A DNA stretch of 20,764 bases from a virus. Positions 197 through 19,641 of this stretch are shown here, piece by piece (position 1 is the stretch's first letter; every line of letters starts with the position of its first letter). The DNA is taken from positions 44,035 through 64,798 of the IMG/VR virus record IMGVR_UViG_3300000116_000016. One strand, given 5' to 3'. The position numbers and the translations under genes were made by a program. The notes below the pieces were generated by a model. The model was not told where the DNA came from, made no database searches, and was given only the letters and a program-made list of their open reading frames with translations.

Positions 197-853
197 TTGG
201 TAACTAGAAAGCGTTGTGTCGTATGTAATCATGAGGACAGATACGAAATTGAACATAGAGTCGAAGAATTACATATTAGTACAGACATTATAGATAGAGA
301 ATATGATTGGTCTAGTGGTACAACTTCTAGACACCAAAGAAATCATATGGGGGAATACGTTAACTCATCTAATCCTAAATGTGGGTTATGTGTTAGTCCT
401 ATTAGAAAAGAATTGGAAGAACAATTACATGCCGGTAATATGACTCCACTTAAGGCCGCAGAAATTGTAGGATGCTCAGAAGAACAAATAGTGCGTCATG
501 TAAAAAATCATTTGCAGCCCTTAGTTCAACAATCCGCAGCAAATATAATTGCTGTGAAGGAAATAGATGAGATAGAAACATTAGAAAGAAACATTGGTAG
601 ATTAGATACTATGATAGAATCATTATTTGATGAAGGAAGTACAGACCCAAAATCTATTGATAGTTTAACCAAACTCGCTAGAGAAATTAGAGAGAGTCTA
701 AAGTATGTTATGGAGTTCAAAGGTAAACTTGTACATAAGAGGCAAGATACAATTATAGTTGCACAAATGCAAATAGTGCAAGAAGTATTAGCACAAAACC
801 ATCCTGATGTTTGGTTAGATGTTAGAAATAAAATGGAGGAGAAGTTACAATGA
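197..853 (+). CDS. Protein with two Cys2-His2 zinc/HTH modules, candidate small terminase subunit
   Basis: About 218 aa from a TTG start at 197. AGGTG (186-190) lies 6 bases before this TTG, the spacing seen at other genes here; a GTG at 188 directly after the upstream stop would add three residues but has no Shine-Dalgarno. The N-terminal half holds two copies of one module: C7-x2-C10 with H46-x3-H50, and C62-x2-C65 with H101-x3-H105. The second copy contains a helix-turn-helix-like segment (LKAAEIVGCSEEQIVRHVKNH). The remainder is helical. Small CxxC...HxxxH proteins with such a helix pair, followed by a helical tail, occur in phages and some act in DNA recognition near terminases. A small terminase role is therefore plausible, although the large subunit lies 5.6 kb downstream. 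The C-terminus overlaps the next gene by 4 bases (ATGA). Confidence 0.75.
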   Translation: MVTRKRCVVCNHEDRYEIEHRVEELHISTDIIDREYDWSSGTTSRHQRNHMGEYVNSSNPKCGLCVSPIRKELEEQLHAGNMTPLKAAEIVGCSEEQIVRHVKNHLQPLVQQSAANIIAVKEIDEIETLERNIGRLDTMIESLFDEGSTDPKSIDSLTKLAREIRESLKYVMEFKGKLVHKRQDTIIVAQMQIVQEVLAQNHPDVWLDVRNKMEEKLQ

Positions 854-2448
854 CTAATCTATTGAAAGCACTTCCGAGAAAGACTGCTGATGATTATAGG
901 AGAATTTTAGTCAATCTCTATACTGATAAACAAATGGATAAATTGATTTCGGAGACTGTTGCTGCAAATGTTGCAGGTAGAAGAAAAGCAATACAATATT
1001 TTTTAGATAATCCTGAATCATTTGCTGAGATTAGAGCCATTGATGGAGTAGATGATAGGGCTAAGAAAATACTAGAGGCAATAAAGAATATCAAAACAGG
1101 TCAACAAGTTAGTGGCAGTAAAGGAAGTCTATTCCCGTCTATATTAGAGAAGTTCAAATCAGGAGACATAGAATCTTTATCAGATTGGACTGAATCTGCT
1201 AAAACTCCTCAGACAAAAGTAGATAGAGTAAAGGATGTAAGAGATAATAAAACAAAATTGTTTGATGCAATCAAAAATTTTGATGAAGCAAAACAAACTC
1301 AAGCATATGAAATGCTGAAAAATACTTACAAAATTGATAAACCTGCACCCGATACATATACTATAACTTCTAGACCTAATTCTCAAAAAATGATTGCATA
1401 TTTGAGAAAAGTTGTTACTAGTAGTAATATTCCTAATAGAGTTAAAACACAAATATTACCTGATACAGATATATTTGGTGATAATTATAATGAATTGTTT
1501 CCCACTTTAGTTTATATTATAGAAACTAAACAATTACCCACTGATGCATCAGGTGATTTGAGTTCTTCTGATTTCCAAAGAAAAAAAACCAAACTATCAA
1601 TTGCTACTAAACAGGCTTTGAAAGGGTTGAGAGGTAGTGACGCTCCTGAAGGATTAAGAAAAATAATGAGTAACATAATAAGTACCACTAAAGAGAATAT
1701 TAAAAATAAAAATGTATATCAAGATAATAAGTTCCTAGAATCTATTGCTAAAGATGTAGATTTGAAGAAACAATTTGAAGAGTATGTAAGGAGGTTATCT
1801 GCAAGTGTAACTTTGAATAAAATACCTGCTCAAGATTATCTCGATTTATCAAGTGAAGAAGATAACGAAACGTATGATGACTATGGATTCGAAGATGCTC
1901 AAGATTTTGAAGATTGGTTAACTGCTTATGATGAAAGGGAAAGGGCTTTTTCTGCTATGGAATTAAGAGGCGGTTCATATGTGTTATCATCTGTAAATGA
2001 TTTAATACATTTATCTGATTTATTTACAGAAGCGGATGTTGATTTAAAAGAAACATTCATGAATATTAGTAGAAAAGACTTAGGAAATTATAGTAAGCGA
2101 TTTAGAGAGTTTAAAGATTTAATACCTATGTTATATGATATAGGTCAAGAGTTAAACTTAGTAGAAAGAAAAAAAGGTTTCGGGTTACATTATAGTAAAT
2201 TTAAAAATGGTGACGAAGAAGACAAGAAAGAGAACTATGAGTTAATGTTAAAAGAACTAATTAATAACGGCATGTATAGTAAGATACGCCAAGGTCTGCG
2301 AAAAATGATTTATGATTCTATGAAAAAAGTCGTAGAAGATAATTATAGAGTAAATGTTCAAGGTGTTACTGAACCTATAAAAATCTTAGAAAATTTAAAA
2401 ATAGCAACTAAGAAAGTAGAAAGTAGTGAGGTGCAATCGGATGAGTGA
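850..2448 (+). CDS. Large protein of unknown function with an N-terminal helix-hairpin-helix-like segment
   Basis: 532 aa. The ATG at 850 overlaps the previous stop (ATGA), with GGAGGAG at 835-841 as a strong ribosome binding site. Residues about 51-81 (FLDNPESFAEIRAIDGVDD and the following helix) have the look of a helix-hairpin-helix: a hydrophobic turn I-x-G-V-D between two helices, a fold often used for non-sequence-specific DNA contact. The rest is Lys/Glu/Asn-rich and mostly helical, with an acidic patch near residues 335-355. There is no signal peptide, membrane segment or catalytic motif. It begins MTNLLKAL, loosely like the N-termini of several small proteins further along. It probably belongs to the head module by position. 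I do not recognise the family. Confidence 0.8.
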   Translation: MTNLLKALPRKTADDYRRILVNLYTDKQMDKLISETVAANVAGRRKAIQYFLDNPESFAEIRAIDGVDDRAKKILEAIKNIKTGQQVSGSKGSLFPSILEKFKSGDIESLSDWTESAKTPQTKVDRVKDVRDNKTKLFDAIKNFDEAKQTQAYEMLKNTYKIDKPAPDTYTITSRPNSQKMIAYLRKVVTSSNIPNRVKTQILPDTDIFGDNYNELFPTLVYIIETKQLPTDASGDLSSSDFQRKKTKLSIATKQALKGLRGSDAPEGLRKIMSNIISTTKENIKNKNVYQDNKFLESIAKDVDLKKQFEEYVRRLSASVTLNKIPAQDYLDLSSEEDNETYDDYGFEDAQDFEDWLTAYDERERAFSAMELRGGSYVLSSVNDLIHLSDLFTEADVDLKETFMNISRKDLGNYSKRFREFKDLIPMLYDIGQELNLVERKKGFGLHYSKFKNGDEEDKKENYELMLKELINNGMYSKIRQGLRKMIYDSMKKVVEDNYRVNVQGVTEPIKILENLKIATKKVESSEVQSDE

Positions 2449-5198: not shown

Positions 5199-5759
5199 AT
5201 GGAAGAAGAAAAGTATCCCGAACTTCCTTCCACTAATTATACTGCTGATGATATTTATTTTAAAACAATGTCAGAAGATGAAGCAGTCAAAGTTTTCACA
5301 AAAGATGGTTATAGTGGATTTAAATCTCGCTCTAATAGGTTTAGAAATACTCCTAAAGATGGTAAGTTTGCAACACAGCCCTCAGTACATCATATTGCAT
5401 ATGAAAAAGATACGGATAAACCCGTAGGTGTAATTGGTTATGCTCCATATAAAGAGTTTTTATTAGGTTCAGGAATACATGTTAGAGATACTTCTAGAGG
5501 TAGAGGATTAATGAAATTATTATTCCGTGAAATGATTAGAGTAAAAGGCAATAAAAAACTTATAGTAAATTTTTCAAGTAAAGTTGCTATGAATCATTAT
5601 CTATCGGAAGGATTTAGACAATTGGATGAATCAGAATTACCTGATGAATTAATTAATGAGATTTCTATTGGTGCAGCAAATGGTAATATAGGCACATTAG
5701 AAAAATATTATGTTCATAGTTCTAGTTGGTGGGCTGCAATAAAAACTGAGATGATATAA
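5199..5759 (+). CDS. GNAT-family N-acetyltransferase
   Basis: 186 aa from ATG 5199, with GGTGAT at 5190-5195 overlapping the upstream stop. GNAT enzymes move an acetyl group from acetyl-CoA to an amine. The central core fits: strand GVIGY (77-81), then HVRDTSRGRGLMKLLF (94-109), which matches the pyrophosphate-binding loop and following helix, although the usual Arg/Gln at the loop's first position is Thr. Then comes a beta strand (KLIVNFSS) and the C-terminal N-x-Y-x-x-x-GF pattern (132-139). About 70 residues precede the core and 45 follow. The stop overlaps the next start. The substrate is unknown; acetylating a virion or host protein, or self-protection, are all possible. Tandem position with two small basic, Lys-rich proteins is suggestive but not evidence of substrate. 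Confidence 0.85.
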   Translation: MEEEKYPELPSTNYTADDIYFKTMSEDEAVKVFTKDGYSGFKSRSNRFRNTPKDGKFATQPSVHHIAYEKDTDKPVGVIGYAPYKEFLLGSGIHVRDTSRGRGLMKLLFREMIRVKGNKKLIVNFSSKVAMNHYLSEGFRQLDESELPDELINEISIGAANGNIGTLEKYYVHSSSWWAAIKTEMI

Positions 5760-6196
5760 TGGATGTATGGTTTGATGTTTTAAAGGCTAAGAAGAAAAAG
5801 CCTCGTAGACGTAAAACCCAAAAGTCGGGTAAAAAACAAGATGCTTGTTATTACAAAGTTAGAAGCCGCTATAAAAAATGGCCTTCTGCTTATGCTAGTG
5901 GTGCTTTAGTTCAGTGTAGAAAAGTTGGGGCAAAGAATTGGGGCAATTCTGTAAAGAAAGGTGGAGACAATTTCAAAAGAGAAAAAGATGAAGGATTACA
6001 CGGTTGGTTTTCTAGAAGAGGTGGAAAAGAAAAAGGTGGTAAAACTCAAAGAGGTTGGATAGATTGTTCTAGTTGTGGCAGTAAAGATGGGCCAAAGCCT
6101 TGTGGTAGAAAGGATGCTTCTAAAGGAACTAAAAGAAGATGTAGGCCAACTTGTGCGGCTTGTAAAACATATACAAGAAGGAAGGGAACAGCATGA
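5759..6196 (+). CDS. Small basic cysteine-rich protein related to phage and giant-virus DUF5872-like proteins
   Basis: 145 aa; ATG overlaps the preceding stop (TAATG). After a basic Lys/Arg-rich N-terminus come two conserved blocks. One is WPSAYASGALVQCRKVGAKN (41-60). The other runs from GLHGWFSRRGGK (79-90) through GWIDCSSC (99-106) and PCGRK (114-118) to CRPTCAACK (128-136). I recall the same WPSAYASG and GLHGWFSR/PCGRK/CRPT blocks in small proteins of marine phages and giant viruses. The clustered cysteines probably bind zinc, and the charge suggests nucleic-acid binding. The N-terminus MDVWFDVLKAK fits the M-x-W-x-D-[IV]-x-K pattern described in the findings. Function is unproven; DNA condensation inside the virion is one possibility. 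Confidence 0.82.
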   Translation: MDVWFDVLKAKKKKPRRRKTQKSGKKQDACYYKVRSRYKKWPSAYASGALVQCRKVGAKNWGNSVKKGGDNFKREKDEGLHGWFSRRGGKEKGGKTQRGWIDCSSCGSKDGPKPCGRKDASKGTKRRCRPTCAACKTYTRRKGTA

Positions 6197-6456
6197 ATTG
6201 GTTTGACGTAGTTAAAGAAGGGCAATGTACTAGGGCTACAAAAAAAACATCATCTACTCGTAAGGGTAAGAAATGGATGAAGTGTGTTCCTAACGGTAAA
6301 GGTGGATATAAAAGAGTACATTGGGGTCAAAGAGGAGTGACTGTTTCAGGTAAAAGAGATGGTAAAAGAAGAAAATCGTTTAGGGCAAGACATAAATGTT
6401 CTACGTGTAAAAGAAGTGACTACTCCGCTAGATGTATGGCTTGTAGAGATTGGTGA
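6193..6456 (+). CDS. Small basic zinc-ribbon-like protein
   Basis: 87 aa; ATG 6193 overlaps the previous stop (ATGA). The protein is strongly basic. C12, C31 and the C-terminal set C69-x2-C72 and C81-x2-C84, with His 67 nearby, suggest a small zinc-binding fold. The C-terminal block KSFRARHKCSTC...CMACRDW resembles a conserved tail I recall in marine phage and giant-virus hypotheticals that often sit beside the previous gene's family. It opens with MNWFDVVKE, matching the shared N-terminal peptide. It lies 4 bases before the terminase start. A nucleic-acid-binding or virion role is inferred from charge and cysteines only. Confidence 0.8.
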   Translation: MNWFDVVKEGQCTRATKKTSSTRKGKKWMKCVPNGKGGYKRVHWGQRGVTVSGKRDGKRRKSFRARHKCSTCKRSDYSARCMACRDW

Positions 6457-6460
6457 TATA

Positions 6461-7897
6461 ATGGAACTAGGTAGTACGGATTTTATGACTTCTATGGATA
6501 TGGAATTATCCAAGACTTCTTTTCCGTATTTTTTTAAGAATGTATTAGGAATGATGTATCCTGAATATATGCAAGAATGGTTAGAGTTAATGCAGGGTAC
6601 AGATAGAACTGTTATTGTTTGTAGTCGTGACCATGGAAAATCCGTCTTTATGCATAGTTGGGTAGTATGGAATCTTGTGTTTCAAGAACCACCTTTTCAA
6701 ATGCTATACATATCTTCTAATCAAAAACAGACTTTAGTACATATGCGTGAAATTGATAAATATTTTAATCTTCCACAATTAAAAAAATTCAGACCTTCTA
6801 GAGGTTGGGCTATTGGGAATATTCAACTGACTAATGGTAATGCAATTTTAGAGCGTTCTGTTGGTTCTCAAATTAGAGGACTTCACCCTCAAGAAATAAT
6901 TATTGATGACCCTTTGAAAGAGTTTAGTTTATCAGGTATTCAAAGAGTTACAGATTGGTTCTTTGGAGATATGATACCGACATTACACCATACTGCAAGT
7001 TTGAGAATGATTGGTACTCCTTTTACATATACTGATATATTTTCACAGTTAGAAGAGAATGATGCTTATACTGTTAGAAAATATCCATGCTTAAATTCAA
7101 TGAATAAACCTCTTTGGCCTGAAAGATGGGACTATGATGCATTAATGCAAAGAAAATCGGAAATAGGGTCATTGAAGTTTACTAGAGAGTATTTATGCAT
7201 ACCAGTTTCAACCGGAACTGCACTTTTTGACCCTGATTATGTAAATAAATGTAAAAATAAAGAATATGTGTTAAAATTAGGCCATCGTAAAGATAAAGGA
7301 TACAAATATTACGTTGGAGTTGACCCTGCTATCTCTACTGATGGTGATTATAATGTAATTGTTGTTTTAGAAGTAGATGAAGAGAAAAATAAAACAATTG
7401 TTCATGTTGATAGAGCAAAAAATGTTGAATTTAGAGAAAATATTGAAAAAATAAGAATAATAGGCCAAGTTTTTGAGCCTGAGCAGATATTATATGAAAC
7501 AAATACATTTGCTAAGGCATTTACACAAGAATTACGCAGTTTGACTGATATGAACATCAAAGACTTCAACACAACAAGAAAAAAGAAGCAAGAAATCATA
7601 TTAAATCTACAAATGAACATAGAAAATGGTAAAATTAACTTTCCTTATGGTGATAATAACAGTAGGAGTATGACTACTGCATTAATTGAAGAATTATCTA
7701 TGTTTTCTATAACAGAATCCGGCAGATTTGAGGGGGTAGGGGCGCATGATGACTTAGTTATGGGATTAGCATTGGCTAATGCTGCTACTCAGTCTCCTAC
7801 TGACTCCTTTATACTACTAGATGACCTCGGAGTGTTTGATGCGCCACAAAAGCCATCTATAAATATGAACACAGGATTGATGGGATTGAATTTTTAA
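6461..7897 (+). CDS. terL: Terminase large subunit (packaging ATPase and nuclease)
   Basis: 478 aa from ATG 6461, with GGTGAT at 6452-6457; the frame is open further upstream but that part overlaps the previous gene. The protein pumps DNA through the portal into the prohead and cuts the concatemer. ATPase part: Walker A-like CSRDHGKS (54-61), Walker B IIIDDP (146-151), and the coupling motif IGTP (184-187). The linker KPLWPERWDYDAL is typical of the family. RNase H-fold nuclease part: GVDPA with Asp 288, ILYE with Glu 346, and AHDD with Asp 430/431 supply the expected acidic metal ligands. All catalytic positions are present and the length is normal, so it should be active. Portal follows after one intervening gene. 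Confidence 0.96.
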   Translation: MELGSTDFMTSMDMELSKTSFPYFFKNVLGMMYPEYMQEWLELMQGTDRTVIVCSRDHGKSVFMHSWVVWNLVFQEPPFQMLYISSNQKQTLVHMREIDKYFNLPQLKKFRPSRGWAIGNIQLTNGNAILERSVGSQIRGLHPQEIIIDDPLKEFSLSGIQRVTDWFFGDMIPTLHHTASLRMIGTPFTYTDIFSQLEENDAYTVRKYPCLNSMNKPLWPERWDYDALMQRKSEIGSLKFTREYLCIPVSTGTALFDPDYVNKCKNKEYVLKLGHRKDKGYKYYVGVDPAISTDGDYNVIVVLEVDEEKNKTIVHVDRAKNVEFRENIEKIRIIGQVFEPEQILYETNTFAKAFTQELRSLTDMNIKDFNTTRKKKQEIILNLQMNIENGKINFPYGDNNSRSMTTALIEELSMFSITESGRFEGVGAHDDLVMGLALANAATQSPTDSFILLDDLGVFDAPQKPSINMNTGLMGLNF

Positions 7898-7912
7898 AAA
7901 GAGGCAAATATT

Positions 7913-9280
7913 ATGGCGACTCCTAATTCTGAACAACTACAAGCATTAACAGACAAAGTAAAGGAAGTTGAAGAACTTACTGCTGAACAACGTCAACTAG
8001 AGCAGGAGATGGAACTAGAGGCCAAGATGTTATGGCTCGATGGTAGGCCATTATCTAGCCACAATGATTTAGTAAAAGAATTTGCAGAAGATTTCAATAT
8101 GTCTTATACAAAGGCAGATAGAATATTAGATTTATCACTTAAGGAATACACAATAGAGAGTAAGAACATTCCTGATTTGGTTAAAGATATGAGAATGTTC
8201 AGAAGAACCCTTAAGGGTGAAAAAAGGTTGGATATGAGTAAATCTATTGATAATTTAATAGATGCTTACGCAGACCATTTAGATAAGAGTATTGATAAGA
8301 TTTATTGGGCTAGTCCATATAAACCTATAATTAAAGATATGACTTGTTCGGAATCACAGATAATCAAACTTAGCAAAATTCAAGATATAGATACCAAAAG
8401 ACAGGTTATAGATTCTCTTTGTAAGTATTGGGAGAATAAATTAGAAATAAAAGATATGCCTTTAAATAAACAATATATTTCTATTAGTAAAGAAATGACA
8501 ACAGCAAAAAAAGATTTTAAGAGAATTATAAAATCTCAAAGTTCTACAAAAGGAATTAAGAAAAGGATTAAAGAAAATATTTTGAAATCTGTTTGTAATT
8601 CACCGGGAATATCTTCTAGAGAAATACACGAAGCATTACCTGATAATCTTAAGAAAATGTCTTCTCCTCAAATTATTTCTAAATTAGCAATTAGTCAAAA
8701 TATTACTAATGTGGATGGAGCATATTATAAAATAAATGATGATATTAAAAAGAATGTTTGGGCCTATACTGCGGCATTCATAGATTCTGATGGATATATT
8801 ACTATGGATAGAAATAACAATCCTAGAGTTGGTTTAGTTGCTACGGGAGATAGAGGTAAGGCTTTCATGTTAGAATTACACAAGTGTTTAGGTATGGGTA
8901 GATTACATTTAGACCAAAAATCTCCACAAGATACTAGACTAGTTAATAGATTAAATTTTTATTCTCAAAAAGATGTGCATGAATTATTGACTAAATGTAG
9001 GCCACACTTTAGAATGAAAGGTCCGAATGCAGATATATTACTAGAGTTGGTTAGAATCAAAAAAGGATTTAAAAAACAACCTTGGGCTAAAGGTAGGATG
9101 GGAGAATTATTTAAATTAATGAAATATCATAATCACAGGGATAATGTGAACTTTGACTTTTCTGCTTTCGATATTGATTTGGATTCTATAAGTAAACTAG
9201 AAGAAAATTCTAAAATGAGTTGGATGGATAAGTTAGAGAGAGATGATGCTTCAAATCTGATAGGAGTAAATAGCACATAA
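7913..9280 (+). CDS. Helical/winged-helix protein with a C-terminal LAGLIDADG domain
   Basis: 455 aa, ATG 7913 with only a weak GAGG upstream. Residues 10-40 are a Glu/Gln-rich probable coiled coil. Residues about 214-275 look like a winged helix (ENILKSVCNSPGISSREIHE, then a recognition helix and a beta wing). From 283 comes WAYTAAFIDSDGYITM, a clear version of the LAGLIDADG motif with the acidic Asp 293 retained, followed by a domain ending in a helix typical of single-motif LAGLIDADG proteins (ILLELVRIKKG). Such domains are homing endonucleases that act as dimers when one motif is present, or regulators such as WhiA. Its place between terminase and portal, a common homing spot, favours a mobile origin. 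The N-terminal 210 aa are not a known endonuclease part, so this could instead be a virion gene that acquired the domain. KMSW (434-437) recurs near the C-terminus. Confidence 0.82.
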   Translation: MATPNSEQLQALTDKVKEVEELTAEQRQLEQEMELEAKMLWLDGRPLSSHNDLVKEFAEDFNMSYTKADRILDLSLKEYTIESKNIPDLVKDMRMFRRTLKGEKRLDMSKSIDNLIDAYADHLDKSIDKIYWASPYKPIIKDMTCSESQIIKLSKIQDIDTKRQVIDSLCKYWENKLEIKDMPLNKQYISISKEMTTAKKDFKRIIKSQSSTKGIKKRIKENILKSVCNSPGISSREIHEALPDNLKKMSSPQIISKLAISQNITNVDGAYYKINDDIKKNVWAYTAAFIDSDGYITMDRNNNPRVGLVATGDRGKAFMLELHKCLGMGRLHLDQKSPQDTRLVNRLNFYSQKDVHELLTKCRPHFRMKGPNADILLELVRIKKGFKKQPWAKGRMGELFKLMKYHNHRDNVNFDFSAFDIDLDSISKLEENSKMSWMDKLERDDASNLIGVNST

Positions 9281-9286
9281 AGGAAC

Positions 9287-9295
9287 TTTAATATG
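9287..9295 (+). promoter_or_regulatory. Possible TATA box before the portal gene
   Basis: TTTAATATG lies in the 56-base gap after the LAGLIDADG-domain gene, about 42 bases before the portal ATG. A start of transcription 25 or so bases downstream would leave a short leader carrying the strong AGGGGGA (9324-9330). It would let the portal be transcribed independently of the gene upstream. Weak by itself in AT-rich DNA. Confidence 0.25.
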
Positions 9296-9336
9296 TGTTT
9301 GGGAAATCGGATAATTAACAATTAGGGGGATAAGAT

Positions 9337-10983
9337 ATGGTAGAAGAAAAAAGAAGATTCAGCATAACGAATCTATTCAGAAGAACAACCCCAAGACCTG
9401 CTGACCGTAAGGTGTTTAATCCGGGTATTCAGGAGAAAGATAATTCCTATATGTTAACTGCACCTATTATCTATCATATAGCAAATCAATCTATAATAGT
9501 TAGAACGTGTGTTACTCAATTAAAAAATGAAATATTTAGAAGGGGATATGTTTGGGAAGAAAAGTTTGTCGCTAAGTGTGATGACTGCTGTAAAGAACAT
9601 AAAACTCCAACAATCGAATGTGTAGATTGCGGCTCTACAAATTTGTCTAAACCTAATCGTGACCAACTAAAATACGCATTATCATTCATGGAGGGGTATG
9701 TCAACAAATCAGAACAATTGTTTATTGATGTGCTTAAGGAGTTGGAAGATGATTTGAACATAATGGATGACGCATACTTAGTCTTAGTTAAGGAATATTT
9801 CTTAGATAACGATTCAGAAGTAATGATGCACCGTATAAAGGAAATCTATCGAGGCGACCCAGTTGGTATGCATATTTATGCTGATGACTTAGGTGAAAGA
9901 GGTAATGAGGGATTTACCTGTTTAAGGCATAGAGATTTCATTAGTGATACTCCGGTAGGGTCTTGTCCTCATTGTGGTACATCTGAATTATATCCTATAC
10001 ATTATGTTAATAGAGTAAATGGTGAAGAACAATATTTCTTAGAAGGTGAAGTCTTACATTTTAGTAAATATACACCTAGTAGGCTATATGGTCTATCACC
10101 ACTAATTACTTTATGGAATAGTGTTACAACACTTATTGCTATGGATAATTATATCAATTCATCATATACTAAGGCAAGAATGCCTAGAGGATTACTTGCA
10201 GTACAGACTAGAAACATAGAATCTATGAAATCTTTTTGGAAAGGCGTAAAAGAAAAGATGGAACAAGACCCACATTTTATACCTGTAATGGGTATTGAAT
10301 CAGAAGGTGGTAAAGGTTCTATTGAATGGATTAAGTTTATGGATAGTCTAAAAGAAATGGATTATGTCTCAGTCAAAGATGATTTGAGAGATAGGGTATC
10401 AGGTTTCTATGGAGTAAGTAAAATATTTATGGCTGATAATTCTTCTAGTGGAGGATTAAATAATGAAGGTATGCAAATCCTTGTTACTAATAGAGCAGTA
10501 GAAATGGCTCAGACAATTTGGAATAATTATGTATTTCCTTTTGTAACAAAAGAGTTTGGAATTACCGATTGGGTTCTAAAACTTCCACCATCGGAAGAAG
10601 AGGATGAAGTTGCTAAACTAAGAAAAAGAGAACTTGAAGTTAATATTGCTGCATCAATTAAAAATTTAGGATTTGAAATAGATATGGATGATGAAGGTAG
10701 GTTCTCTTATAGTAAACCTGAACCAAAACCTGAACAAGAAGGTGCAGGTGGAGAGCAAGAAGAAAAGGTTGAGTTAGACCCGTATGCAGGTACAAATATT
10801 GATGCAAGTCAATTAGGGCAAATGCAAGAAGAGATGATGAATCAAGGTAAAAAACAAGAGAATCCTGCTACAACTAGAAATAAACCTAGTATGGATAGTG
10901 GGCCTGATAAAAGATTTAGTGGTTTACCCGAAGCAGCCGGAAATCAAAATGTTGATAAAAGAACTGAAAGAAGGGTAGGTTAG
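9337..10983 (+). CDS. Portal protein with two zinc-binding loops
   Basis: 548 aa, ATG 9337 with a strong AGGGGGA at 9324-9330. The portal is the dodecameric ring at the capsid vertex through which terminase moves DNA. The family is indicated by the order of segments: an N-terminal wing, LHFSKYTPSRLYGLSPL (245-261), the stem region, then DRVSGFYGVSKIFMADNSSS, GGLNNEGMQ and a helix ending MAQTIWNNYVFPF. It carries two insertions with likely zinc sites: C81-x2-C84 with C95-x2-C98, and C195-x2-H198 with C210-x2-C213. The final 80 residues are Gln/Glu/Pro-rich and probably disordered. Placement after terminase and before the protease and capsid genes is the standard order. Confidence 0.92.
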   Translation: MVEEKRRFSITNLFRRTTPRPADRKVFNPGIQEKDNSYMLTAPIIYHIANQSIIVRTCVTQLKNEIFRRGYVWEEKFVAKCDDCCKEHKTPTIECVDCGSTNLSKPNRDQLKYALSFMEGYVNKSEQLFIDVLKELEDDLNIMDDAYLVLVKEYFLDNDSEVMMHRIKEIYRGDPVGMHIYADDLGERGNEGFTCLRHRDFISDTPVGSCPHCGTSELYPIHYVNRVNGEEQYFLEGEVLHFSKYTPSRLYGLSPLITLWNSVTTLIAMDNYINSSYTKARMPRGLLAVQTRNIESMKSFWKGVKEKMEQDPHFIPVMGIESEGGKGSIEWIKFMDSLKEMDYVSVKDDLRDRVSGFYGVSKIFMADNSSSGGLNNEGMQILVTNRAVEMAQTIWNNYVFPFVTKEFGITDWVLKLPPSEEEDEVAKLRKRELEVNIAASIKNLGFEIDMDDEGRFSYSKPEPKPEQEGAGGEQEEKVELDPYAGTNIDASQLGQMQEEMMNQGKKQENPATTRNKPSMDSGPDKRFSGLPEAAGNQNVDKRTERRVG

Positions 10984-11026
10984 TGCCGGAGTTGTTATTC
11001 TAGCATATTTAAAAAAAGGTGATTAA

Positions 11027-11239
11027 ATGACTGAAAAAAGTGTAAGACAATTAGAAAGAGAACTAGCAGAGGCAAGAGCAAAAGTGTATAATGCACGTAA
11101 GGTAGAAGTGAATAGAGATTTAGATGCAGTAGGTATTGATTTGTCTAGAACAGTAGAAAAGAAAATTCCTGACAGCAATGATATTCCTGACGTAATTTTA
11201 ATGCCAAAGAGAAAAAGAAATACAGAAAATAAGTGGTAA
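11027..11239 (+). CDS. Small charged protein of unknown function
   Basis: 70 aa, ATG 11027 with GGTGAT at 11018-11023, 3 bases away. The first 40 residues form one amphipathic, Arg/Glu-rich probable helix (VRQLERELAEARAKVYNAR), and the basic end PKRKRNTENKW may be extended. There are no cysteines or hydrophobic segments. It lies directly after the portal, where small head-assembly or portal-accessory proteins are often coded. A short coiled coil with a basic tail would fit a core or connector role, but no family is recognised. Confidence 0.7.
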   Translation: MTEKSVRQLERELAEARAKVYNARKVEVNRDLDAVGIDLSRTVEKKIPDSNDIPDVILMPKRKRNTENKW

Positions 11240-11241
11240 GT

Positions 11242-12591
11242 GTGTCTATACTATTGAAAGCAGATATTCGCGGTCATAAAGAGCCTACGGCTAAAACTGC
11301 TTTTGTATTAGACCAAATTAAAAAAACATTTTCTCCTAAAGTAAAAGATTTATTGTCTAGTAAAGTTCCTGATAACTTCGTTAACAATTTGGAAAATGTA
11401 GTTAGAGTTACTGATGGTAATTGGAAAGATAGGCTTCGAGAATCTTTATCTGATGACTTGATGACTGCTTCAGGTGGATATAATAGATTAGGTTCACAAA
11501 ATTTTAGAGATTCAGGAGAACCTGTAAGAGAACCTAAGATAGATATGAGTAAAATATTTGTAGCCATTACAGCACATCGTAAAGTGTTTAAACAAATTCT
11601 AAAAATTAAACAAGATAATGCTACTATGTTTTTATTAGCGGGTATGTCTGATGATATGCGTTCAGAAGAAAATCAACAACAATTAGATAATTTTGTAGAA
11701 AATTTAGAAGAAGGTTCAGATGAAAAGGCTATCTATGATGCGTTTGTAGTCGATGAAAATATATTCAGTAAATTAGAAACTGCTATATCTACGCTCGATA
11801 AGTTAGAAGACCAACTATCTAGAAAAGAAAGAAGGTCTTCTAGTGATTATTCTTTTATCTCCACATTAACTAATTTACTTAATAGATATGGTAAAGACTC
11901 TAGAATGGAAAATTATAGAGGTGAATTGGATACATTACAAAGTGAGTCTAGACTATTTTCTCAAGAAAATGTATTTAAATTTCTAGATAAATATGAACAA
12001 GGTAGACACCCTGTTAGATTGTTAGAAGTATTAAATGATGAGTATTCTGGTAAAACAGGAATAGAATTGTTGAAAGAAATATTTACTAAGAAAGGATTTA
12101 AATTAGAACAAATAAAAGTTGGAGATACAAAACGATTAAGAGGGTTTATAGATTTAAATTATAGAAAAGTAGCAACAGATATTAAACAAGCAATGAATCC
12201 TGATGCTACTAAATCACAGGTAAAAATATTTACTGAAATGAAAGAGTCTAAGATTATTGATTATGCTGATGCAATAGAAATAAGACTTGGTGATTTATTA
12301 GATGATGAAGAGGCTAAAGAATCCTATTACTTGGCTGAACCTGACCCTATGTTTGATGAAAAGGGATTACCTGAAGATGTTAGTATAGGTGTAGCAGATA
12401 TAAAAGATGAGGATTATCGTATGGAATTAAAAAGAACTACTGAATTATATGCATTTATGTATTATTTAGCAGAATTAAGGGAAATCTCTTTAGATAAGTC
12501 GTTCTTACGAAATGATGCACATACTGTTGAAGTTGAGTCTTTACCTGAAAAGTTTGCTATATTAAGAGAAGTCATGGGTGATTTAGAATGA
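11242..12591 (+). CDS. Unknown helical protein in the head module
   Basis: 449 aa from GTG 11242; GTG 11233, overlapping the previous stop by 7 bases, is equally possible (452 aa), and neither has a clear Shine-Dalgarno, so translational coupling is likely. The chosen start gives MSILLKAD, similar to other N-termini in this cluster. The protein is mixed-charge and helical with many Lys, Glu and Asp. It has no catalytic motif, cysteine cluster or membrane segment. The C-terminal quarter is acidic (LGDLLDDEEAKESYY and following). It overlaps the next start by 4 bases. By position it should be a structural or assembly protein. It may be a counterpart of the large unknown proteins at 850-5194, though I see no firm alignment. 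Confidence 0.75.
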   Translation: MSILLKADIRGHKEPTAKTAFVLDQIKKTFSPKVKDLLSSKVPDNFVNNLENVVRVTDGNWKDRLRESLSDDLMTASGGYNRLGSQNFRDSGEPVREPKIDMSKIFVAITAHRKVFKQILKIKQDNATMFLLAGMSDDMRSEENQQQLDNFVENLEEGSDEKAIYDAFVVDENIFSKLETAISTLDKLEDQLSRKERRSSSDYSFISTLTNLLNRYGKDSRMENYRGELDTLQSESRLFSQENVFKFLDKYEQGRHPVRLLEVLNDEYSGKTGIELLKEIFTKKGFKLEQIKVGDTKRLRGFIDLNYRKVATDIKQAMNPDATKSQVKIFTEMKESKIIDYADAIEIRLGDLLDDEEAKESYYLAEPDPMFDEKGLPEDVSIGVADIKDEDYRMELKRTTELYAFMYYLAELREISLDKSFLRNDAHTVEVESLPEKFAILREVMGDLE

Positions 12592-12836
12592 GTTGGGAAG
12601 ATATAATTAAATTTAAGTATTATCCTTATCCTGAAGATGAAGATGCAGAGTTTAATAGAGTTAAAGTAAAAAGGGAAGGAAACAAAAAAGGAACACCAAA
12701 ATCTGCATCTGTTGATATGCCAAAAAGAAAAATAAAAGACAGAAAGGATTTAGAAAAGATAGCAAGGGAATTAGATAAAGCCGTTGAAATGCACACATCT
12801 CAAGCAAAAAGAATTAGAGAAATTATAGGTGATTAA
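12588..12836 (+). CDS. Small protein with the MSWEDIIK N-terminus
   Basis: 82 aa, ATG 12588 overlapping the previous stop (ATGA), GGTGAT at 12577-12582. It begins MSWEDIIKFKYYPYPEDEDA. A basic middle (VKVKREGNKKGTPKSA, then PKRKIKDRK) follows, and the C-terminus is a helix (LEKIARELDKAVEMHTSQAK). No known family. The opening peptide is the clearest example of the shared M-S-W-x-D-I tag, and the rest looks like a small, flexible, basic protein that could be packaged with DNA or sit inside the prohead. Confidence 0.75.
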   Translation: MSWEDIIKFKYYPYPEDEDAEFNRVKVKREGNKKGTPKSASVDMPKRKIKDRKDLEKIARELDKAVEMHTSQAKRIREIIGD

Positions 12837-12837
12837 T

Positions 12838-13170
12838 ATGGGTTGGCAATATACACTTCAAAAAGCAGATAGTGGTTTATTGGAAAAACTAGAACCTAAA
12901 GAAAAAAAGAAATTGAAGAAATTACTTCAATCTACTCAGCCATCTGAATACTTTGGTCAAGATTTAACTAAACTATCTTCTCTTATAGATGAGATGAAGA
13001 AAGTTGAATTAATTAAAAGTGATAAGAAACTAACTAAGAAATTAAATGGGTTTGATGAAAAGAACTTAAGTATTGTAGCGTCAGCAGCAGAACTAAGGAA
13101 GGATTACGAGACTTTGTATAATCAGTTGCGAAGTATGGTGTATCCCAGTAAAAAAGGTGATTTGAAATGA
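12838..13170 (+). CDS. Small lysine-rich helical protein
   Basis: 110 aa. ATG 12838 is preferred to GTG 12829 because GGTGAT at 12828-12833 would otherwise overlap the start codon. It begins MGWQYTLQKAD, a variant of the shared Trp-containing N-terminus. Next comes a Lys/Glu/Leu-rich helix (LEKLEPKEKKKLKKLLQS) and further helices to the end. No cysteines, no membrane segment. It ends with an ATGA overlap into the next gene, and its length and composition match those of its two neighbours, as if these small genes were related in role. Family unknown. Confidence 0.72.
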   Translation: MGWQYTLQKADSGLLEKLEPKEKKKLKKLLQSTQPSEYFGQDLTKLSSLIDEMKKVELIKSDKKLTKKLNGFDEKNLSIVASAAELRKDYETLYNQLRSMVYPSKKGDLK

Positions 13171-13487
13171 GTTGGGAAACGACATTGAAAAAAGAACGTA
13201 AGGTAGCAAGAGATATAAGAACATTTAAAGGGATTTTAGAAAAGGAAGTAGATAACTTCCTAAATAGGAATATATTTGATGAAAGCGATTATACCGAAGA
13301 AAAATTAAAACAATTACAAGGAGATATTGATAGTGGAGAGGTAATGGCAGGTCTTGGCCGTTTTCTTAAAATAGAGTTGAGCCTTATTGATGGAGAAGGG
13401 TTTTATATTGATGTTGCAGAAAAAGATGATACAAAAGTAGTATCCTTTCAATTTGATTCAGATGGTAAATTAAAGAGGAGGGGTTAA
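13167..13487 (+). CDS. Small protein with the MSWETTLKK N-terminus
   Basis: 106 aa, ATG 13167 with GGTGAT at 13156-13161. It opens with MSWETTLKKERKVARDIR and continues as a helix, then a compact alpha/beta-looking C-terminal half (LKIELSLIDGEGFYIDV, then VVSFQFDSDGKLKRRG) with alternating beta strands. The pattern is a helical tag plus a small globular domain. No family recognised. It abuts the next gene without a gap and shares its Shine-Dalgarno style with neighbours. Confidence 0.72.
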   Translation: MSWETTLKKERKVARDIRTFKGILEKEVDNFLNRNIFDESDYTEEKLKQLQGDIDSGEVMAGLGRFLKIELSLIDGEGFYIDVAEKDDTKVVSFQFDSDGKLKRRG

Positions 13488-13715
13488 ATGAGTGAAGAAA
13501 ATGAAATGCTTATGCTAATGAAAGAGTTAGTTGATAAAGTGAAAGCACTAGAAGATACAGTATATAGACAAGATAATTTATTAATGAAATCAGGATTTGT
13601 AGTTTCTACATCTCCTAAACCTGCTATGGTAAATGGTGCTGCTCCTTCAAGTGATATAATATCTAAAATGAATTGGGATGATATTCACAAAATTGTGGAA
13701 AGAATTGAGGGGTGA
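13488..13715 (+). CDS. Small protein sharing its C-terminal peptide with the scaffold
   Basis: 75 aa, ATG 13488 directly after the previous stop, with AGGAGGGG just upstream. Residues 1-30 form a helical heptad-like segment (MLMLMKELVDKVKALEDTVY) that could be a short coiled coil. A Pro/Ser/Ala-rich linker follows. The C-terminus is IISKMNWDDIHKIVERIEG, nearly the same pattern as the end of the protease/scaffold protein (LSSMSWGDIHNLARKF). In several phages the scaffold's C-terminus binds the capsid protein, so this protein may dock on the same site or be a minor scaffold component. That is inference from the shared tail. Confidence 0.72.
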   Translation: MSEENEMLMLMKELVDKVKALEDTVYRQDNLLMKSGFVVSTSPKPAMVNGAAPSSDIISKMNWDDIHKIVERIEG

Positions 13716-17040: not shown

Positions 17041-17064
17041 GTCGTTGAAAAAAACATATTGCTA

Positions 17065-18252
17065 ATGCTGTCTGCCCCAATGCGTCTTGTTAATCAAGAT
17101 GCACGTGATTTTAGTATTCTAAAGTCAGATGATTTAATTATTGGTGGTTATGCTTCAATAGAAATGATAGATAAACAAAATGATTTGATTACTATTAAGG
17201 CATTAGAAGAGGCTGTTGATGGCTTTATGGTTAATAAAAAATTTAGAAATGTAATGTCTAACCATTCTAATGTGCAAGTAGGAGAAGTAATTGATTCTTA
17301 TAGAGATAAAAATGGTTTAGTGCATAAGACTCACGTAGATGACGTTGGATTTTATGTTGTTATTAAATTAAGAGATGATATTGAAAAAGCAAAAGAAATA
17401 TCTAGAAATATTAGAAAAGGAACATTGCGTTCTTTTAGCATAGGAGGTCAGGCTATTTCTAAAAGAAGCCGTAAATCAAATGATTTAGGTGAATATAATG
17501 AAATAGATGGTCTTGAATTACACGAAGTCACAATTTGCGAAAAAGGAATTAATCCTGAAGCCAAGTTTGATATATTAAAGGAAGAAAAAGGTGAAAAAAA
17601 TATGACTGAAAAGTTAGAAAAAGCCCTTGAGGAGTTGAATGACTTGATGAAACAAGTTAATTCTCTCAATAAGGAAGAAGAAACGATGGAAGCCCCAATG
17701 GAAGAAGACATGGAGTACATGGCTACTGAAGACGGGAAAGATGAGATGGAAATGACTCTTGATGATGAAGAAGCAAAAGCATTAGATGACCAAGACTTAG
17801 TACATATAGAAGCAGGTGAAGAAGTAGTAGTAAATGGTAACCCAACTGCAACTCCTGCACCTCTAAAAGTATCTAAAGAATGGGATGCATCAGAATTTAA
17901 ATCACTAGATTTATCTGCTGAAAATGTTGAAAAGGCTTATGAACAATTCAAAGCAGAGCAATTAGAAAAGATTGCTTATGAAAACCTATCAAAACAATTT
18001 GAAACAAGATTTGTTTCAGAACAGGCTGTAAGAAAGTCTGCTAATGAGAGAGCAGAATATGATGCTCGTACCGAAGTAGCAGCATTAAAAGAAGAGTTTG
18101 CTGTACTACGCAAATCATTATCTGCTAAAGATACTGAAATCGCAAAAGCAAAAGAAATTTCGTTTGGATTACCTGAAGGTTTCCCTGCAACATCAGAAGA
18201 GTTATCTTCTATGAGTTGGGGAGATATTCATAATCTAGCGAGGAAGTTTTAG
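17065..18252 (+). CDS. Prohead protease fused to scaffold domain
   Basis: 395 aa from ATG 17065; TTG 17059 or ATG 17080 are alternatives, none with a Shine-Dalgarno. Residues 1-175 are an HK97-type (U35/S78-like) prohead protease: NVMSNHSNVQVGEV holds the likely catalytic His 67, SFSIGG the nucleophile Ser 125, and LHEVTICEKGINPEAKF the third acidic residue (probably Glu 154). The enzyme cleaves scaffold and sometimes capsid protein during maturation. Residues 180-395 are acidic and helical, typical of a scaffold delta region, with a Met-rich acidic patch and a long coiled coil (ANERAEYDARTEVAALKEEF). The end, LSSMSWGDIHNLARKF, recurs in a neighbour. The capsid gene follows after 12 bases. 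The catalytic assignment is from motif order only. Confidence 0.9.
   Translation: MLSAPMRLVNQDARDFSILKSDDLIIGGYASIEMIDKQNDLITIKALEEAVDGFMVNKKFRNVMSNHSNVQVGEVIDSYRDKNGLVHKTHVDDVGFYVVIKLRDDIEKAKEISRNIRKGTLRSFSIGGQAISKRSRKSNDLGEYNEIDGLELHEVTICEKGINPEAKFDILKEEKGEKNMTEKLEKALEELNDLMKQVNSLNKEEETMEAPMEEDMEYMATEDGKDEMEMTLDDEEAKALDDQDLVHIEAGEEVVVNGNPTATPAPLKVSKEWDASEFKSLDLSAENVEKAYEQFKAEQLEKIAYENLSKQFETRFVSEQAVRKSANERAEYDARTEVAALKEEFAVLRKSLSAKDTEIAKAKEISFGLPEGFPATSEELSSMSWGDIHNLARKF
17590..17594 (+). promoter_or_regulatory. Internal ribosome binding site inside the protease gene
   Basis: GGTGA sits 7 bases before an in-frame ATG at 17602, exactly at the protease/scaffold domain boundary. The surrounding run of A would keep it unstructured. 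This is the same GGTGA type used by neighbouring genes. Confidence 0.5.
17602..18252 (+). CDS. Predicted nested scaffold protein (internal start of the protease gene)
   Basis: 216 aa, in the same frame as the protease-scaffold gene, starting at its Met 180 (MTEKLEKALEELNDLMKQVN). The start has its own GGTGA at 17590-17594 and falls at the point where the protease domain ends and the helical, acidic scaffold begins. Lambda makes its scaffold Nu3 in just this way within protease gene C. If used, it would supply scaffold in excess of protease, which assembly usually needs. The C-terminal MSWGDIHNLARKF would be the capsid-binding end. Evidence is the start signal and domain boundary only; the ATG could be unused. 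Confidence 0.45.
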   Translation: MTEKLEKALEELNDLMKQVNSLNKEEETMEAPMEEDMEYMATEDGKDEMEMTLDDEEAKALDDQDLVHIEAGEEVVVNGNPTATPAPLKVSKEWDASEFKSLDLSAENVEKAYEQFKAEQLEKIAYENLSKQFETRFVSEQAVRKSANERAEYDARTEVAALKEEFAVLRKSLSAKDTEIAKAKEISFGLPEGFPATSEELSSMSWGDIHNLARKF

Positions 18253-18264
18253 GAGTGAGAAAAG

Positions 18265-19641
18265 ATGAGTGGATACACAAACACAATTAAAGATTTAGAA
18301 GCCGCAACCTATGGATTAACTGGCCCTGCCGGAAATGCTCTATTAAAGAGTTCAGGTGTTGTCGGTGGATTCGGAACGCCCCATGACGCTGCATCAAACC
18401 CGTTTAGTGCAGCAAGTGGATTGGGAGATTTATACAATGTTCTTTACGGACAAAAAGTATGGTCAATGCTAAACCAAGAGGTTAACCCTCTTTCAATTCT
18501 AGCAAAAAGACCTTACACATCATCAGGATGGAGAGTTCTAAAGAGCCGACCTACTGGTGGTAGTGGTTCTGCATTTGGAACAGGAACAACTGCTGTTGCT
18601 GCAAACACTGCTGATTTATCTACACCTAGAGTAGACCAAATTGGTGGAGTAGAAGAAAATGCAACATTAGACGGTGCAAATGGGTTTAGACCACTTTCAC
18701 CTGAATACGCTAAATTATTCGTAAGTCCAAAAACTGTTGCTCATTTGTTTGAGTTCTCAGAACTTGGTATGGAATTGGCTGCTATTGATGATGGTGTCGG
18801 AGACATTCGTGCAATCGTTAGAGAAGATATGGGTAAGCATCATGCAGAAACACAAAGCAAAATGCTAGTTATGCCATACGAATCATATGATGATGGTACA
18901 GCAACAAACATTGAAAGAAACTATACTTCTTTGATGAAGATTGTTTCTTCTGCGGGTGAAATCGCGGCTATGTATAATGCTAACTTATTGACTACTGGCG
19001 CAAACAATGGAGATAACTCCGCAGTTGTTGCAGATGTAGTTAATCTGTTTGGTACAACAAGAAGTGTTACTATTAGTAGTAATGCTGCAACAGGTGTTGC
19101 TTCTTTCTTGGATGCAGAGGTTGACTTTGGAGATGGATATGCAGCAGGTGATGCTAGAGTTCTAACTCTCACTATGATTAATAGTATGATTAGAAGAATC
19201 CGTCAAAATGGTGGAAACCCAAAATGTATTCTAACAGGATACGATACTATTCAGCACATTGCTGACTTACTACAAAGCCAAGAAAGATTTATGGATAGGA
19301 AAGAGATTGTTCCTACACATAATGGTGTAAAAGGTGCAAAGGGTCAAGAAGTTGGATTTAGAGTAGCAACATACTTTGATATCCCTCTAATCCCTGCAAA
19401 GGATATGCCTTCAACTGGTAGTAACTCAACAAATGAACTGAGTGATATGCTGTTCCTAGATACAGACCATATGTGGCTATCTGTTATGAAACCAACTCAA
19501 TACTTTGAGGATGGAATTACTAACGGAAACCCATTCGGTGTCGGTAAACTTGGAAACCAAGGAATGTACAGAACAATGGGTGAAACTTGCTGTTCTTTCT
19601 TCAAGGGTCAAGGTAAGATTACTAACATTAAGAGTGCTTAG
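18265..19641 (+). CDS. Major capsid protein (HK97 fold)
   Basis: 458 aa, ATG 18265 with AGGAGTGAG at 18251-18259. It forms the capsid shell. Support is its position right after protease/scaffold, its length, the absence of other motifs, and segments typical of archaeal tailed-virus capsid proteins: PKCILTGYDTIQHIADLLQS (residues about 314-333), then RFMDRKEIVP, EVGFRVATYFDIPLIPAKDM and a C-terminal MKPTQYFEDG. The N-terminus is Gly/Ala/Ser-rich and extended, without the long helical delta domain of HK97, consistent with a separate scaffold. Codons here use C and G in third position more than the AT-loving genes upstream, as expected for a very highly expressed gene. The family call is by pattern and context. 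Confidence 0.9.
   Translation: MSGYTNTIKDLEAATYGLTGPAGNALLKSSGVVGGFGTPHDAASNPFSAASGLGDLYNVLYGQKVWSMLNQEVNPLSILAKRPYTSSGWRVLKSRPTGGSGSAFGTGTTAVAANTADLSTPRVDQIGGVEENATLDGANGFRPLSPEYAKLFVSPKTVAHLFEFSELGMELAAIDDGVGDIRAIVREDMGKHHAETQSKMLVMPYESYDDGTATNIERNYTSLMKIVSSAGEIAAMYNANLLTTGANNGDNSAVVADVVNLFGTTRSVTISSNAATGVASFLDAEVDFGDGYAAGDARVLTLTMINSMIRRIRQNGGNPKCILTGYDTIQHIADLLQSQERFMDRKEIVPTHNGVKGAKGQEVGFRVATYFDIPLIPAKDMPSTGSNSTNELSDMLFLDTDHMWLSVMKPTQYFEDGITNGNPFGVGKLGNQGMYRTMGETCCSFFKGQGKITNIKSA

Follow-up and report, generated by a model that had tools for sequence, protein, structure and literature searches.

A tryptophan-containing peptide of eight residues on otherwise unrelated virus proteins, probably a head-loading tag that resembles the docking tail of the scaffold

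The stretch of DNA analysed here, the window, comprises 20,764 nucleotides, namely bases 44035-64798 of the 64,798-base virus record IMGVR_UViG_3300000116_000016 (a 64.8 kb contig). It carries head genes and many small open reading frames (ORFs), several of which start with the same short tryptophan-containing peptide, called the tag in the following. An earlier note on this DNA had pointed out five such N-termini, and all five are indeed there; overlooked were further copies upstream, C-terminal copies, and the tails of the prohead protease and of the protein encoded at 13488-13715. The peptide is real: nearly the same eight letters, close to MSWxDILK, stand on dozens of otherwise unrelated proteins. 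The copies and tag-like tails in the window are the following.

5724..5756, + strand: C-terminal tag-like end SWWAAIKTEMI of an acetyltransferase-like protein (ORF 5199-5759)
5759..5785, + strand: N-terminal tag MDVWFDVLK of a basic protein of 145 amino acids (ORF 5759-6196; DUF5872 match below cut-off)
6193..6216, + strand: N-terminal tag MNWFDVVK of a basic protein of 87 amino acids (ORF 6193-6456; DUF5754 match below cut-off)
12588..12611, + strand: N-terminal tag MSWEDIIK of a protein of 82 amino acids (ORF 12588-12836)
12838..12864, + strand: N-terminal tag MGWQYTLQK of a protein of 110 amino acids (ORF 12838-13170; the longest ORF begins at a GTG, at 12829)
13167..13193, + strand: N-terminal tag MSWETTLKK of a protein of 106 amino acids (ORF 13167-13487)
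13668..13712, + strand: C-terminal tail MNWDDIHKIVERIEG of a protein of 75 amino acids (ORF 13488-13715), coiled-coil-like by eye; the tail is conserved in the family
18211..18249, + strand: C-terminal tail MSWGDIHNLARKF of the prohead protease (ORF 17059-18252), the proposed model of the docking peptide

The tag was counted in the best 80 of 565 loci picked by coat protein and in the best 80 of 275 picked by terminase. We used the regular expression W-x-[DETSQNYA]-[ITVLM]-[ILVM]-(x)-[KR], which demands Trp, two hydrophobic residues and Lys or Arg and was fixed after the window sequences had been viewed. Proteins were clustered after 20 residues had been trimmed from both ends, so that the tag itself cannot create a cluster; single linkage fuses some families, and one cluster has 402 members. 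The comparison with shuffled N-termini that the earlier note had proposed came out far above chance. With one representative per cluster and with loci not chosen by tag, 165 of the 699 clusters carry the tag at the N-terminus, while 300 shuffles gave a mean of 2.06 and a maximum of 7. Clusters with at least three members are tagged in 32 of 137 cases (0.54 in shuffles), and with the loci found by the tag pattern added, the count becomes 368/1348 (4.28 in shuffles). Because the expression was written after seeing the window and fixes part of the consensus, we repeated the count with M-x-W alone and obtained 233 of the 699 clusters, compared with a shuffle mean of 44.6 and a maximum of 62 (200 shuffles). 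What follows M-x-W then appears unprompted: K, E, F or Q, then Asp (41%), Ile (50%), Leu (51%) and Lys (77%). Past this Lys no residue is conserved, none exceeding 24% in the M-x-W-only test.

The peptide is mostly N-terminal. Sorted by residue, 411 matches of the expression fall within the first ten residues and 60 within the next ten, followed by bins of 8, 6 and 40 and then by 1-3 per ten residues; the bin of 40 is probably made up mostly of the late ligase, which matches near residue 44. Among the 100 families with at least three members, the tag is present in at least half of the members at the N-terminus in 38, at the C-terminus in 3 and inside in 5. The sample holds 387 tagged protein clusters, singletons included, and Trp is residue 3 in 343 of them (the wider set, which includes tag-picked loci). 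The consensus of the tag is M-[STN]-W-x-[DN]-[IV]-[LI]-K; the percentages derived from the expression in the wider set, and the consensus of A1 and A2, are partly built in by it. A short conserved N-terminal peptide on otherwise unrelated proteins, as the earlier note had seen it, held in the cluster tests with the ends removed.

The position of the tagged genes is best described relative to the landmark genes of the window.

6359..7897, + strand: large subunit of the terminase, without tag
9337..10983, + strand: portal protein, without tag
17059-18252, + strand: prohead protease, with Peptidase_S78 at residues 27-175; the remainder of the protein is presumably scaffold
18265..19641, + strand: major capsid protein, SU10-like, without tag; the tags nearly cease here, and this protein is the proposed docking partner of the tag

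Tagged ORFs were located in eight genomes of 64.8-102.7 kb, five of them read whole and three for the first 98 kb. On the coat strand, within the 32 kb that precede the coat gene, 90 of the 262 ORFs carry a tag, and among the 663 other ORFs none does; the 32 kb limit was set after viewing the tag map, and one ORF among the 90 owes its place to a chance match within the terminase of genome G006. No tags are found on the opposite (replication) strand of these genomes, and the N-tagged ORFs number 6-15 per genome. On the coat strand of 80 coat loci, the N-terminal tag occurs in 190 of 649 upstream ORFs, compared with 1 of 795 downstream, and each of the 50 coat loci whose upstream part spans at least 8 kb contains at least one tag (some of these loci are near-identical). 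None of the loci in these position counts had been picked by the tag pattern. The tag is specific to genes upstream of the coat gene. It is not limited to the stretch between portal and protease, where the earlier note had placed the cluster of small genes: the tags begin far upstream of the terminase.

Two proteins of this region end in near-copies of the peptide. The C-terminus of the protease reads M-[SD]-W-x-[DE]-I-[HN], or a close variant, in 111 of the 112 sequences, which have 52 distinct tails with the Met in 88%. The family of the 13488-13715 protein shows the same tail motif in 73 of 79 (40 distinct tails; Met 97%), counts that come partly from tag-picked loci and include 27 extra tails taken by a pattern requiring the motif. 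For these 27 further loci, which come from 26 contigs and have coat proteins of 50-75% identity, an inspection with no motif filter showed that the ORF beside the coat gene ends in the motif in all 27. The Met of these tails is not a start codon and is hence part of the peptide itself; at the N-terminus its position is filled by the start Met, which would explain the fixed M-x-W spacing. Scoring with the cargo matrix placed the tail of the 13488 protein 8th among the 19,469 interior 7-mers of genome G000 and the protease tail 3rd among the 259 Trp sites of that genome; for the protease tail of G006 the ranks were 6th among 28,231 interior 7-mers and 1st among 309 Trp sites. Among the 32 untagged families with at least 10 members, three have a conserved C-terminal W-x-[DE]-[ILV], compared with 0 of 277 interior windows. 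The third of these families is that of the protein of 220 amino acids at 188-853, which has an N-terminal Cys/His cluster and ends in P-x-V-W-L-D-[IV]-[KR], with the motif in 70 of 71 sequences. Its position and a helix-turn-helix-like stretch suggest the small terminase subunit. We considered its end as a third scaffold tail and discounted it, the context of the motif being different.

The codons speak for selection of the peptide. The 16 clusters that start with MSWKDILK use 11 codon spellings, and for Asp, Ile, Leu and Lys of the tag the choice of codons lies near background with some skew (Ile ATA 61% vs 41%), in counts that include loci picked by the tag pattern. A nucleic-acid signal, in which translation coupling or ribosome binding would maintain the shared start and the peptide would be a by-product, draws on the ATGA that opens 326 of the 436 distinct tagged starts, the bases that permit overlap with an upstream TGA stop, and on Ser at position 2 being encoded by AGT in 94% (in a set picked partly by a pattern favouring AGT). 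Gene coupling may indeed largely explain the second residue of the tag. However, ATGA explains just a second codon that begins with A, and the several codons used for Asp, Ile, Leu and Lys, together with copies at C-termini and in the tails of the protease, places without a gene start, led us to reject a signal at the nucleotide level; largely refuted already, this explanation is very improbable. A spread of gene starts through recombination, with no selection for function, would fit small accessory genes in a variable region, and the tagged neighbours at 39212, 39799 and 40565 of the contig do fall in one family. Against such a spread, the conserved block ends after eight residues, identical peptides come in many codon spellings, and tags sit at opposite ends within one acetyltransferase-like cluster, so that we give it next to no weight. 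A simple duplicated gene start, named in the earlier note as what would undo its proposal, is rejected for most clusters by the clustering with both ends removed; as far as function is concerned, it is answered by the end-trimmed clusters, the many spellings and the C-terminal copies. From this data we conclude that the peptide is selected at the protein level.

The C-terminal copies are found in several protein families. The family of the 363-residue protein at contig position 42474 ends in the motif, its Trp being at least 90% invariant and its Lys often replaced among 37 aligned members. The tail is modelled as disordered, with a predicted local distance difference test score (pLDDT) below 50 at residues 337-363 and an overall mean of 82.5; a fold search of this family gave no PDB match at E 0.001 or better and three nameless viral matches. 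The acetyltransferase-like cluster (58 members) matches the expression at the N-terminus in 6 members (MNWFDLLK, MSWWNIIK), while 15 carry the tag at the C-terminus (NWKDILRR, SKWMQVLRRHV) and 37 at neither end; the Pfam matches of two tested members lie below cut-off. The end SWWAAIKTEMI of ORF 5199-5759 is missed by the expression, and some of its cluster-mates are clearly tagged, at the N- or the C-terminus. A tRNA nucleotidyltransferase at locus L298 bears a tag copy beyond its last domain, which ends at residue 406 of 428, and its cluster-mate at L293 begins with MGWMQILK and ends in LWKSILKKQYNIK, one tag per end. The ORF between terminase and portal, at window positions 7913-9280, ends in KMSWMDKLERDD..., conserved in close relatives and perhaps another tag-like tail. 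By eye the protein looks like a LAGLIDADG-type endonuclease joined to a core protein; a Pfam search gave no match.

Upstream of the window, the contig holds the following copies.

Contig 39212, 39799 and 40565: N-terminal MSNSWFDILK, MTWFDILK and MWFDILK
Contig 43535, 43756 and 43910: N-terminal VSWMDIVK, MSWQRYLK and MTKWQEILK
Contig 41487 and 42474: C-terminal ends LDWKDTIKRE and KDWRTIMKVVA

Two looser N-termini had also been counted as versions of the tag. The protein of 532 amino acids at 850..2448 (+ strand) starts with MTNLLKAL and has no Trp there. Two of its cluster-mates, at L092 and L093, are fully tagged (MTWFATLK, MNWFSALK); the other four cluster members start with MTNL or MSNLL and lack the Trp, and two of these Trp-less members have a longer form reading LHWGILKMSNLLKA. 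The start at 11242 (MSILLKAD) was rejected as a tag, since Trp is present in 0 of the 11 cluster members that reach the N-terminus (13 listed). The gene at 6193 is absent from our own ORF calls, owing to its overlap with the long form of the terminase. Since 71 of 80 terminase relatives align to ORF 6359 only from residue 24-45 onward, the true start of the terminase probably lies further downstream than annotated.

Most tagged proteins gave no match in Pfam scans and other comparisons. A Pfam scan of 123 tagged representatives returned 13 families with one member each, several of them probably by chance, and a scan of a further 78 returned 17 families. Matches were obtained for two PAP2-type phosphatases, a pentapeptide-repeat protein and a tRNA-ligase-type phosphodiesterase, and a metallopeptidase match lies below cut-off. 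The tag is also found on a tRNA nucleotidyltransferase, an acetyltransferase (7e-10) and a protein with a weak ocr-like match (3e-4). The motif HExxH was seen in 6 of the 387 tagged clusters and in 1 of the 961 clusters without tag (p 0.003; tag-picked loci included), and the tagged proteins that contain it are putative metalloproteases. At locus L293 the tRNA nucleotidyltransferase-like protein with both ends tagged (L293:6429-7679; its Pfam scan was run on the L298 cluster-mate) adjoins the N-tagged phosphodiesterase of tRNA-ligase type (L293:7687-8100, minus strand), and the two may form a packaged tRNA-repair pair. Homologues in at most one of the seven other genomes are the rule for tagged genes (73% of 90), compared with 32% of the 149 untagged ORFs of the head cluster. 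The tagged genes are accessory and turn over fast.

The window contains a head module of Caudoviricetes type (coat, portal, terminase and protease), a feature of Magrovirales, and the other arm of the contig runs in the opposite direction, with genes for PolB, PCNA, RFC, primase, TFB and ribonucleotide reductase. Genes of the replication arm were named by eye, except the ligases, which were found by their mutual BLAST match; the ligase of the head cluster also matches Pfam. Magroviruses of marine archaea have the same opposite-arm arrangement (PMC10768690, PMC12999244), and in Magrovirales the replication and morphogenesis clusters run in opposite directions and the viruses have their own PolB, PCNA, RFC, primase and ligase (PMC10768690). 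We infer that the contig is magrovirus-like, related to viruses of common ocean archaea, with an archaeal host. A pattern scan of the viral collection gave at least 119 stretches. Among 117 new loci, 101 have at least one tagged ORF, 94 at least two and 16 none, and of 30 picked contigs, mostly those least like the first set, 26 contain a relative of the coat protein and two more a relative of the terminase. By eye, no such starts were seen in 21 head genes of HVTV-1 and 13 of HGTV-1, both of them distant archaeal viruses, the end EWSTVVNDAW of the HVTV-1 terminase being a loose look-alike. As far as seen, the tag marks the magrovirus-like group. We found no published account of such a tag among the papers listed by searches of the magrovirus, Poseidoniales and archaeal-virus capsid-targeting literature, an earlier mention being possible, and a term search of the texts of PMC10160649 and PMC5332604 gave no mention of it.

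Some genes of these contigs stand apart from the tag. An ATP-dependent DNA ligase of 850 amino acids (window 14480-17032) adjoins the protease in the head cluster, a second ligase lying in the replication arm. A ligase match stands at the same head-cluster place in the other seven mapped genomes, with a shorter ORF in two of them. The ligase of the window has no terminal tag and an inner W-K-K-T-V-K near residue 44. The C-termini of two replication-arm proteins, TLDEWW for L002:8935-9849 and TLDKWL for L002:16210-17070 (minus strand), resemble clamp-binding ends. A PCNA-binding motif was rejected for the tag, which differs from the usual pattern of that motif and from these two ends. At the arm border, the opposite ORFs L003:15808-16365 (minus strand) and L003:16486-17055 both end in SSQEEE, and one of them has the inner start METWEDTKKK.

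The best explanation, to which we assign a probability of about 0.68, is that the peptide is a head-loading tag resembling the docking tail of the scaffold. What the sequences show is the peptide itself, found far more often than in shuffles, at either terminus of a protein, on genes confined to the region upstream of the coat gene, and similar to the tail of the protease. As the head assembles, the protease-scaffold would dock via its C-terminal M-[SD]-W-x-[DE]-I-[HN], in all likelihood on the coat's inner face, and the small 13488 protein would probably dock by the same kind of C-terminal peptide. Cargo from the same late cluster, with a similar peptide that stands at the N-terminus in most cases and at the C-terminus in some, would dock in the same way, be enclosed in the prohead and later be packed together with the DNA. 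Tagged proteins would thus be present in the virion, and some of them may be delivered into the archaeal host. The earlier note had considered a tag of the T4 kind that directs proteins to the head and is removed by the prohead protease. Its first half is favoured by the confinement of the tags to the head-gene side of the coat gene, the near-copy that ends the protease and the spacing of the T4 core; its second half finds no support here, nothing being conserved after the Lys.

Several observations weigh against this explanation. Where the tail of the protease reads His-[Asn/Lys], the cargo tag reads Leu-Lys, so that the two peptides may bind at different sites. With the cargo matrix the tails rank middling overall, and in genomes G011 and G014 neither tail is among the top matches listed. 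A tethered fold, with the tail joined to the coat protein, reached a mean pLDDT of only 34. C-terminal tags are rare: the expression finds them in 5 of 699 clusters (shuffle mean 0.86, maximum 4) and in 9 of 1348 in the wider set (1.5, maximum 6). The tagged proteins are not clearly more basic in net charge (p 0.17 and 0.05), and the aligned cluster N-termini show no conserved cleavage site after the tag Lys. Alternatively, the tag could bind the scaffold core rather than the coat, as said of T4 targeting peptides, and be cut off by the prohead protease once the cargo is loaded. An affinity of T4 propeptides for the core is described in PMC9026906, and Lys, the most constant residue after Trp, could be the P1 residue. 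The absence of any conserved residue behind it argues against removal, however, and a near-copy at the very end of the protease itself fits a contact from scaffold to coat better; we regard core binding as unlikely. A signal for a place other than the head interior, be it a motif docking on host proteins or membranes or one for assembly onto the outside of the head, would suit the two tagged proteins that match PAP2 phosphatases, enzymes able to act at membranes. It accounts poorly for tags that are absent from the replication strand and nearly absent downstream of the coat gene, and for the near-copy on the protease tail, and is in our judgement unlikely.

Returning to the head-loading tag, one may speculate further that a single peptide of eight residues, borrowed from the docking tail of the scaffold, acts throughout an archaeal virus group as a general entry pass to the head, whichever terminus of a protein carries it. 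It would have recruited a fast-changing arsenal (387 clusters) of mostly unknown proteins, including tRNA-processing enzymes, putative metalloproteases and a pentapeptide-repeat protein, which are injected to disarm archaeal defence. This wider picture is tentative, and we would put it somewhat below even odds. If the peptide is indeed a head-loading tag, hundreds of unknown proteins may be carried into the host cell, and small archaeal-virus proteins become a defined list of head cargo that can be read from sequence alone. The list would be a catalogue of candidate anti-defence or takeover proteins of viruses known from metagenomes only (PMC10768690, PMC12999244). It would also offer a way to approach protein loading in tailed viruses of archaea, and possibly a short peptide by which proteins of choice could be brought into the capsid of such a virus.

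Among known systems, the protease-scaffold fusions of the herpesvirus pUL26/26.5 type bind the coat protein by a C-terminal tail, and the likeness lies in a protease with a conserved C-terminal peptide. To our knowledge, cargo proteins that copy the tail peptide are not part of that system. Encapsulin cargo-loading peptides are short terminal peptides that load unrelated enzymes into a shell of HK97 fold; the encapsulin, in contrast, is a cellular nanocompartment with few cargoes and no scaffold. For DarB of phage P1, the N-terminal 30 residues suffice to carry a reporter to the capsid, according to the part of PMC9024508 that deals with it. This is likewise an N-terminal packaging signal, in a system of one protein in a temperate bacterial phage. 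The closest likeness is to the capsid-targeting sequence of phage T4, where IPII and IPIII start with MKTYQEFIAEA and IPI with MKTFKEFT. A passage in PMC9026906 assigns targeting mainly to residues 4 and 7 and processing to residues 8 and 10, and the T4-type internal proteins are described in a section of PMC3012670 as diverse defence proteins sharing just the targeting sequence. In both cases a short N-terminal peptide stands on diverse proteins, and the cargo varies among relatives while the tag stays, as far as those passages go. Both have a core of the order aromatic-x-acidic-hydrophobic-hydrophobic, Y-Q-E-F-I in T4 and W-x-D-I-L here, with an i, i+3 spacing of Y4/F7 in T4 and W3/I6 (or V) here, which we take as a likeness in sequence rather than homology. 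This likeness ends with the core: where T4 has its cleavage signal, a near-constant Lys is found here. The present tag differs further from that of T4 in its additional use at C-termini, in the 6-15 N-tagged ORFs per genome, in its likeness to the protease tail and in belonging to a virus of archaeal type.

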